This document shows positions 6,422 through 7,691 of a DNA stretch of 12,163 nucleotides, in pieces. Under the pieces are notes generated by a model. The model was not told the DNA's origin. It saw only the letters and a list, made by a program, of their open reading frames with translations, and did no database searches. The stretch lies in the NCBI GenBank assembly GCA_937128575.1, contig CAKZMN010000110.1, positions 1-12,163 of the forward strand, in the 5' to 3' direction. The position numbers and the translations under genes were made by a program. Each line of letters opens with the position of its first letter. Position 1 is the stretch's first letter. Origin of the DNA: an uncultured Alphaproteobacteria bacterium (GTDB taxonomy: Bacteria; Pseudomonadota; Alphaproteobacteria; Micavibrionales; Micavibrionaceae).

Positions 6422-6512
6422 AGCCGCACTCAGACTCGCTTTCGACTCACATTCATCACATAAAGATTCACAGATAACGCATTGACTCCATTGCGCGAAT
6501 CCACTTTTTTTC

Positions 6513-6541
6513 TTGACGCAGAATCCATTTTGACTCATGAT
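6513..6541 (+). promoter_or_regulatory. Candidate sigma70-type promoter of ccrM
   Basis: TTGACG (6513-6518) matches the -35 consensus at five of six bases. After a 17-base spacer comes CATGAT (6536-6541), which matches the -10 consensus at four of six. Transcription would begin near 6548, giving a leader of about 25 bases. Three GANTC sites fall on this promoter: 6521-6525 in the spacer, 6532-6536 touching the -10 box and 6539-6543 overlapping it. Other TTGAC-like boxes at 6482 and 6530 lack a good partner. The start site is a prediction. Confidence 0.45.
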
Positions 6542-6559
6542 TCGATGTTCTTAAAAAAT

Positions 6560-6565
6560 GGAGAG
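6560..6565 (+). promoter_or_regulatory. Ribosome binding site that decides the ccrM start
   Basis: GGAGAG at 6560-6565 lies seven bases before the ATG at 6573. It overlaps the G of another in-frame ATG at 6558, which has no ribosome binding site of its own, only an A-rich run before it. The downstream ATG is therefore the better start; the upstream one would add five residues. Confidence 0.75.
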
Positions 6566-6572
6566 TAAACAA

Positions 6573-7691
6573 ATGTCGAGTCAAAAAACAAAACCATTCA
6601 CAGATAAAGATGTGAAGAATAAGGTGCTGACGGGGAATTGTGTGGAGCTTATGCGCCGCATAGAAAGCGAAAGCGTCGACTGTATTTTTGCCGACCCTCC
6701 CTATAACCTTCAGCTTGGTGGTGATCTGCACCGCCCAAATAACAGCAAGGTTGATGCGGTTGATAATGACTGGGATCAATTTGATAGCCTTAAAGCGTAT
6801 GATCAATTTACGACGCAGTGGTTGAGCGCGGCGCGTGATTGTTTGAAACCCGATGGCAGCATTTGGGTGATTGGCAGTTATCACAATATTTTCCGCCTTG
6901 GATACATATTACAGGATTTGGGATTTTGGATTTTAAACGATGTAATTTGGCGCAAGAGCAACCCGATGCCGAACTTCCGTGGTCGTCGCTTTACCAATGC
7001 GCATGAGACTATGATTTGGGCGTCGAAGTCCGAGAAATCGAAATATTACTTTAATTACGACTCTATGAAGGCGCTGAATGAAGATTTGCAGATGCGCAGC
7101 GATTGGTACCTGCCGCTTTGTACGGGCGGTGAGCGCATTAAGGGTGATGACGGCAAGAAAGCCCACCCTACGCAAAAGCCAGAGGCGTTGTTGAGCCGGG
7201 TTATTCAGGCATCCACGCGTAAGGGCGAGGTCATTATGGACCCATTTTTTGGCACCGGCACGACAGGCGCGGTGGCAAAAAAGCTGGGGCGTGAATTTAT
7301 TGGCCTGGAGCAAGACGAAACCTATGCCAAGGTGGCGAAGACGCGCATTGATGCGATTGATCCACTTAAGGATATATTGGTTGATGTGCAGCCCAAGCGC
7401 GAGAAGCCGCGCATTCCGTTTGGATCATTGATCGAGCAAGGCTTGCTGAAACCGGGCGCTATTTTGACAGACTCAAAGAAAAAGCATTCTGTGACTGTGC
7501 ACGCCGATGGATCTGTTATGGCGCAAAATCGAATTGATGATGTGCGTGGATCCATTCATAAGGTTGGGGCGGCCGTGCAAGGCGCGCCATCATGCAATGG
7601 CTGGACCTATTGGCATTATGAAGATAAGGGCCAACGCTTGCCGATTGACCATTTGCGAGAGCAAGTGAGATCACAAGCGGCGCAGCAATAA
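6573..7691 (+). CDS. ccrM: CcrM-type DNA adenine-N6 methyltransferase (GANTC)
   Basis: This is a cell-cycle methyltransferase that transfers a methyl group from S-adenosylmethionine to the adenine of GANTC, so that sites are hemimethylated after fork passage and remethylated late. It has 372 residues, slightly longer than the Caulobacter enzyme. The catalytic motif IV DPPY is at 41-44, and HPTQKP at 198-203 and the SAM loop [10 protein letters not shown] (223-232) follow. This is the beta-class order. The C-terminal extension (about 280-365), with [12 protein letters not shown] and a [11 protein letters not shown] segment, matches the CcrM DNA-recognition domain, which separates it from plain restriction-modification enzymes. 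No restriction gene is nearby, which supports an orphan regulatory enzyme. The region before it is packed with its own target sites. Confidence 0.95.

Follow-up and report, generated by a model that had tools for sequence, protein, structure and literature searches.

The window analysed here, a stretch of 12,163 nucleotides, is one contig (C110) of an uncultured genome of the Micavibrionaceae (hereafter the Micavibrio family), assembled to 1.70 Mb (1,702,675 bases) in 360 contigs and 84% complete. Two genes and a ribosome-binding sequence frame the region of interest:

5792-6421, forward strand: rnhB, ribonuclease HII, the upstream neighbour of ccrM (PF01351, E 1.8e-42; NF000595 above cut-off)
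6560-6563, forward strand: Shine-Dalgarno sequence GGAG, read from the sequence, 9 nt before ATG 6573
6573-7691, forward strand: ccrM, GANTC adenine methyltransferase of 372 amino acids from ATG 6573 (PF01555 and RAMA domain PF18755)

The ccrM product combines an N6_N4 methylase domain (PF01555, E 3.2e-66) with a C-terminal RAMA domain (PF18755, E 1.5e-18), both over cut-off, and its best match among solved structures is CcrM 6pbd (E 1.3e-152). It also matched NF050803 at E 1.3e-181, but its 603 bits lie below the 830-bit cut-off of that model. The nearest named ccrM match is from a Micavibrio MAG, with 79% identity over the best segment. The domain pair and the structural match support the claim of the preliminary description that the gene after the cluster encodes the methyltransferase CcrM, with GANTC as its predicted specificity. 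The starts of family members and the GGAG at 6560-6563 agree and thus point to ATG 6573, rather than ATG 6558, as the ccrM start. In the Micavibrionaceae, methylation at GANTC has been measured on contigs of genomes other than that of the window (PMC9296519).

Nine GANTC sites, at 6433, 6444, 6465, 6484, 6497, 6521, 6532, 6539, and 6578, were found by direct count. All nine positions given in the preliminary description were exact on recount, and so was its figure of about 16 sites in the rest of the window, the total being 25. It had also called the motif otherwise depleted relative to an expectation of 47; the depletion is real, with 25 sites observed versus 38.4 ± 6.4 in whole-window shuffles (198 of 200 had at least 25), but the expectation of 47 was too high. 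Base-composition shuffles of 6422-6582 gave a mean of 0.57 sites and a maximum of 5 in 20,000, compared with the nine observed. The cluster ranked as the densest in both genome samples searched. These were contigs C1-C40 of the 360 of the source genome (218,274 bases, 12.8% of the total), in which the densest 150-bp stretch outside the window had 3 GANTC, and 400 kb of the ~1.9 Mb of a same-genus genome (G024), in which the ccrM leader came first with 8 sites and the next stretch had 5. The latter stretch (L205, 1500-1637) also carries the DnaA-box-like sequences TGTGGATAA and TGTGGATGG and may represent an origin-like region or a cell-cycle promoter.

The cluster is thus real, but its sites are not equivalent: three are embedded in a predicted promoter with rigid spacing, those farther upstream are variable, and one is coding. 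The earlier assignment of all nine to a control region accordingly fits eight, whereas the ninth (6578) falls within ccrM codons 2-4. A promoter scan predicted a sigma-70-like promoter with 9/12 consensus matches, comprising TTGACG at 6513-6518, a 17-bp spacer, and CATGAT at 6536-6541, and the features are arranged as follows:

6433-6501, no strand: upstream array of five GANTC sites (6433, 6444, 6465, 6484, and 6497), -115 to -47 from the predicted +1
6513-6518, forward strand: -35 element TTGACG, from the promoter scan (9/12 together with the -10)
6521-6525, no strand: site A, GAATC, in the -35/-10 spacer, -27 to -23
6532-6536, no strand: site B, GACTC, whose last base is the first base of the -10, -16 to -12
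6536-6541, forward strand: -10 element CATGAT, from the promoter scan, with the C at -12 supplied by site B
6539-6543, no strand: site C, GATTC, overlapping the end of the -10 in the context TGATTCG, -9 to -5
6548, forward strand: predicted transcription start, placed from the -10 position, 7 nt downstream of the -10
6578-6582, no strand: coding GANTC site in codons 2-4 (TCG AGT CAA), based on family codon conservation

The scan gave another 9/12 match, TTGACT at 6530 with AAAAAT, where family conservation is absent. The -10 at 6536 is weak by construction, because site B sets C at -12, a position occupied by T in the sigma-70 consensus. GANTC sites lie between the -35 and the -10 (A at 6521 and B at 6532), which is a trait of GcrA-activated promoters, and methylation targets overlap the -10 (B and C), which is a trait of methylation-repressed promoters.

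We assessed the conservation of this arrangement in the Micavibrio family, in which 96 of 104 genomes encode ccrM. Loci were read in 93 of these, leaving aside G041, G063, and G069, whose matches start within the gene. Three of the 93 (L100, L117, and L172) have under 200 bp of upstream sequence, and the counts below refer to the other 90 unless stated otherwise. A relaxed core, defined as TTGAC with a GANTC at the site A spacing ±2 or at the site B spacing ±1, either being enough, was found by an unanchored test in 89 of the 90 loci, the exception being G057, and in 12 of 2117 control segments, drawn mostly from the coding parts of those loci, where GANTC is scarcer. The strict core was present in 35 of 36 family genera. 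The site A arrangement TTGAC-N3-GANTC occurred in 82/90 loci, the site B arrangement TTGAC-N14-GANTC in 79/90, both in 73/90, and all three sites in 55/90, these loci sharing ancestry, so that the rows are not independent. Among control TTGAC sequences of the same loci, TTGAC-N3-GANTC was found in 0/201 cases for the family and 1/310 for the named loci from outside it. At least five GANTC within 320 bp were counted in 83 of the 90 family loci. The rnhB gene lies no more than 400 bp upstream of ccrM in 63 of the 93 loci, and the strict core persists in 20 of the 21 loci for which at least 900 bp were available and tblastn finds no rnhB; the candidate explanation that the cluster belongs to the rnhB tail was thus ruled out.

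An alignment could be built for 88 of the 93 loci (L100, L117, L172, L175, and L176 had no alignable core). It was anchored on TTGAC and site A, or on site B where A was absent, so that conservation in these columns, including the invariance of TTGAC, is partly circular. The G, A, T, and C positions of the sites had an information content of 1.3-2.0 bits, except for the fourth-base T of site C (0.97 bits), and the central base had 0.32 bits at site A (A 38, G 23, C 20, T 1) and 0.63 bits at site B. At the level of sequence, conservation at A and B is therefore that of the GANTC motif and not of fixed letters. Site B was flanked as TGANTCA in 79 of 79 aligned family sites. The second base of the -10 was A in 86/88 loci and its last base was T in 88/88; this invariant T is also the central base of site C, which was GATTC in 66/88 loci and absent in 22/88. 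Over the only stretch profiled, -20 to +44 of TTGAC, conservation was confined to the promoter elements, the sites, their flanks, and a T-run, and the expectation that the cluster would be conserved while flanking bases drift was borne out in the family alignment. The 130 bp before TTGAC contained a mean of 3.05 GANTC versus 0.43 expected from base composition (87 family loci), with 13 as the most frequent spacing in the upstream array.

The coding site showed a related pattern. Among the 88 aligned loci, 47 encode a protein starting with MSS or MAS, and 42 of these 47 retain GAGTC; all 35 MSSQ starts spell TCG AGT CAR and hence contain the site. Because TCG and AGT account for 11 and 10% of the serine codons of these ccrM genes (n=1832), and the top codon never exceeded 56% at 13 other conserved serine columns, synonymous choice at codons 2-4 is under constraint, with shared ancestry contributing. 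These observations bear on the reading that the sites have no regulatory role and reflect the tolerance of intergenic GANTC in Alphaproteobacteria together with shared ancestry. GANTC is indeed over-represented in intergenic DNA, by more than 1.5-fold on average (PMC3973325). However, the excess in the ccrM leader is far larger and local in both genome samples, the spacing to TTGAC is retained in 35/36 family genera, the motif letters are held while N drifts at A and B, and the codon choice is held at 6578; this reading is already disfavoured, and we regard it as very improbable.

Outside the family, we examined 69 named loci (80 minus 10 family duplicates and the short L060), which are largely of the Rhodobacteraceae and Rhodospirillales type. 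Site A was present in 60/69, site B in 54/69, and the relaxed core in 64/69, with a median of 3 GANTC. A class-wide sample was drawn from 167 ccrM-bearing genomes, three of them of the Micavibrio family; the 87 promoters comprised 27 returned by the search and 60 selected, for the most part, to cover further families, and extended to matches of about E 1e-145, which places the most divergent ccrM genes outside the sample. The relaxed core was found in 62 of these 87 upstream regions and was absent in 25, and TTGAC-N14-GANTC occurred in 36/87. The core is thus not universal: 25 of 87 class loci lack it, and G057 of the family lacks upstream GANTC. Judging from these comparisons, the Micavibrio family seems to have elaborated, by additional sites, a promoter type that is spread more widely. 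A wider regulon with exact TTGAC-N3-GANTC was not seen: contigs C1-C20 of the source genome held none, and the G024 sample held that of ccrM and one other (L208), apparently at or in an open reading frame.

The exceptional G057 locus (L176) belongs to a genome with both ccrM and GcrA. The 300 bp preceding its ccrM are free of GANTC; they retain TTGAC, which is followed by two copies of the DnaA-box-like sequence TGTGGATAA.

The preliminary description had also offered GcrA as a reader of the cluster. GcrA is encoded in the source genome (G000:C20; PF07750, E 7.3e-42), and PF07750 matches occur in 101 of 104 family genomes, among which a few GcrA calls may be false, as the model also matches 2 of 14 control genomes (Caulobacter vibrioides and Sulfolobus acidocaldarius). 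With GcrA present, methylated sites A and C could recruit it together with sigma-70 and open the weak -10, in which case methylation would sustain ccrM expression and hemimethylation would lower or time it. Such a positive loop accords with the stimulation of open-complex formation by GcrA at methylated promoters (PMC7403470) and with the activation at 40-60 min of Caulobacter cell-cycle start sites that have GANTC between -35 and -10 (PMC4287350). The extended GcrA motif reported for Caulobacter is YGAKTCK (PMC7987155); site C reads TGATTCG in the window and fits this motif in 54 of 66 family C sites versus 61 of 404 other GANTC, which favours a possible GcrA role in the Micavibrio family. 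On the other hand, site B fits YGAKTCK in 0/79 cases, site C is missing in 22/88 family loci, including that of the same-genus G024, which has GcrA, and the Brevundimonas subvibrioides protein is reported to have no clear preference for an extended motif (PMC7987155). Site A fits the motif in either orientation in 36/82 family loci; by inspection of the window, the sites at 6433 and 6444 match it when read on the opposite strand, and sites A and B do not match.

The distribution of GcrA across the class weighs further against the loop. A GcrA match at E 0.001 was obtained in 131 of the 167 ccrM-bearing genomes and in none of the other 36, 27 of which are listed as at least 90% complete. Where the genome gave no GcrA match, the core was present in 16 of 21 promoters, versus 46 of 66 where it gave one (Fisher p 0.78); 17 of these 21 genomes are at least 90% complete with no more than 5% contamination. 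A lax GcrA re-search of the 21 returned nothing over cut-off, and the source genome's own GcrA as query against the 16 that bear the core gave a best E of 0.096, although a very divergent GcrA could escape both the PF07750 and the GcrA-query searches. GcrA as a necessary reader was therefore rejected, the core being similarly frequent with and without a GcrA match, and the positive loop as a whole seems to us somewhat unlikely. Because 16 of 21 GcrA-negative promoters retain it, the core is apparently independent of GcrA, which may be an added layer in the window's genome.

Several side observations concern GcrA itself. Its lack of detection in 36/167 ccrM-bearing class genomes is at odds with the published consistent co-occurrence of the two. 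Small open reading frames in L003 (1444-1695) and L004 (near 1501-1668) match only the C-terminal part of GcrA, about positions 98-153 of PF07750, which is the sigma-interacting end (confirmed with Pfam for L003); similar stand-alone pieces are found in several family genomes and are possible GcrA competitors or phage proteins. Two family genomes, G030 (92% complete) and G082 (86%), have neither a ccrM nor a GcrA match, joint loss being possible but not shown.

Other regulators were considered in turn. No strict CtrA box was found in 6250-6600, a search with strict patterns that degenerate boxes would escape, and a strict CtrA box as the driver of the window promoter was rejected on this ground; such boxes occur in 2/90 family loci. 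Mutual exclusion of CtrA box and core was dropped as an idea, the class sample having three loci with both and six with the box only, too few to compare. The sites might instead serve a DNA-binding protein distinct from GcrA, one that either blocks methylation or is itself blocked by it, with the upstream array as the main element; a MucR-like shield, DnaA, and CcrM itself bound as a protein are the candidates. MucR shields some GANTC sites in Caulobacter (PMC5172544), and strict DnaA boxes are enriched in ccrM leaders, taken as the 130 bp before codon 20, with 21 in 32 kb versus 6 in 742 kb elsewhere (family, 11 in 11.7 kb versus 4 in 214 kb; named others, 4 in 9.0 kb versus 2 in 390 kb; class, 6 in 11.3 kb versus 0 in 138 kb). 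This enrichment agrees with the prediction that DnaA controls ccrM mainly where CtrA sites are missing (Brilli 2010, PMC2877005). However, the profiled stretch around TTGAC conserves nothing beyond promoter elements, sites, flanks, and the T-run, and a DnaA box in the window was rejected, the only match with up to two mismatches among those starting in 6401-6700 being at 6611; we consider a dedicated protein of this kind improbable. In L287 and L298, from genomes with no GcrA match, the DnaA-box-like sequences TTATCCACA and TTATACACA stand in the ccrM -35/-10 spacer in place of site A, and site B is retained.

Based on these results, it is quite probable that the ccrM promoter senses the methylation set by CcrM, whichever the sign of the response. 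In our main reading, to which we assign a probability of about 0.5, a sigma-70 promoter core is built around CcrM sites, full methylation represses it, and fork passage releases it. In the fully methylated core, m6A at -15/-13 (site B), at -8/-6 (site C), and in the spacer (site A) would hinder RNA polymerase at a -10 already weakened by the C at -12. Passage of the fork would leave the sites hemimethylated, the promoter would fire, and CcrM would accumulate until it remethylated the core sites and so ended its own synthesis. The additional sites, upstream and early in the coding sequence, would make this switch sharper or later, and in lineages with GcrA, including that of the window, GcrA may also read sites A and C.

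The Caulobacter ccrM leader has only two GANTC, whereas the window has three sites inside the promoter itself. The IS10 transposase promoter has a single methylation site, a target of Dam rather than CcrM, and drives a transposase gene and not the methyltransferase's own. CfrBI is a case of a methyltransferase that methylates its own promoter region, although CcrM, unlike the enzymes of restriction-modification systems, is an orphan tied to the cell cycle. For restriction-modification methyltransferases, methylation of the own promoter region has been listed among three major modes of control (PMC3695355). In Caulobacter crescentus, according to a model paper, ccrM expression is similarly limited to hemimethylated DNA and shut by methylation, but CtrA is the activator there (PMC2217572) and no strict CtrA box was found in 6250-6600 of the window; an effect of GANTC state on Caulobacter ccrM has been called most probable (PMC3973325).

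The repressive sign, which the preliminary description had also proposed, is one that we infer by analogy. Repression by full methylation fits two precedents, the gcrA promoter of Agrobacterium tumefaciens and methylation of the IS10 -10. The former region is dense in GANTC, with 6 in 250 bp, and is weaker when methylated, also in E. coli, where alphaproteobacterial regulators are absent (PMC11514494); it differs in driving gcrA and not a methyltransferase, and fixed site positions on -35/-10 are not described in the accessible text of that paper. In the source genome of the window, the 250 bp preceding gcrA contain 1 GANTC. The IS10 promoter likewise has its methylation site on the -10, where methylation inhibits in vitro and hemimethylation has an intermediate effect (PMC3701705). 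The repressive sign is opposed by MamA-dependent genes, in which loss of m6A from the -10 lowers expression (PMC3701705), and by GcrA activation at methylated promoters (PMC7403470; PMC3667746). The Caulobacter promoters of mipZ, podJ, pleC, flaY, and tipF are alike in that promoter GANTC is needed for their GcrA-dependent activity (PMC3667746). In contrast to the nine sites of the window, two GANTC are given for mipZ and one for ctrA P1 (PMC3667746), and 'several' for podJ (PMC5172544), and the ccrM core also occurs in genomes without a GcrA match. A synthetic CcrM memory operon resembles the proposed circuit in that a methylation-sensitive factor controls an operon containing ccrM, but that factor is an engineered zinc-finger repressor and not a natural promoter (PMC5458116).

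That ccrM responds to GANTC methylation is not in itself a new idea. In the literature covered, which lacked most subscription papers, no description was found of GANTC sites fixed on the ccrM -35 and -10 across the class; an assessment of GANTC in front of cell-cycle genes was made by Brilli 2010 and may include a per-gene count for ccrM (PMC2877005). We tentatively extend the main reading to much of the Alphaproteobacteria, as a possibility that we rate below even odds: a conserved ccrM promoter at which RNA polymerase itself would read GANTC, without GcrA or CtrA, would constitute an ancestral replication-coupled homeostat, to which reading by GcrA would have been added later. If this is true, the homeostat would let CcrM refill genome methylation after each fork, and GcrA reading through site C and the upstream arrays would be a later addition that is most elaborate in the Micavibrio family. 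The promoter model makes a clean prediction for E. coli that carries either active or dead CcrM. CcrM timing has a central place in the alphaproteobacterial cell cycle, and the usual account of it, drawn from Caulobacter, invokes CtrA; a conserved promoter with CcrM's own sites on its -35 and -10 would link fork passage directly to CcrM synthesis in lineages without the CtrA wiring.
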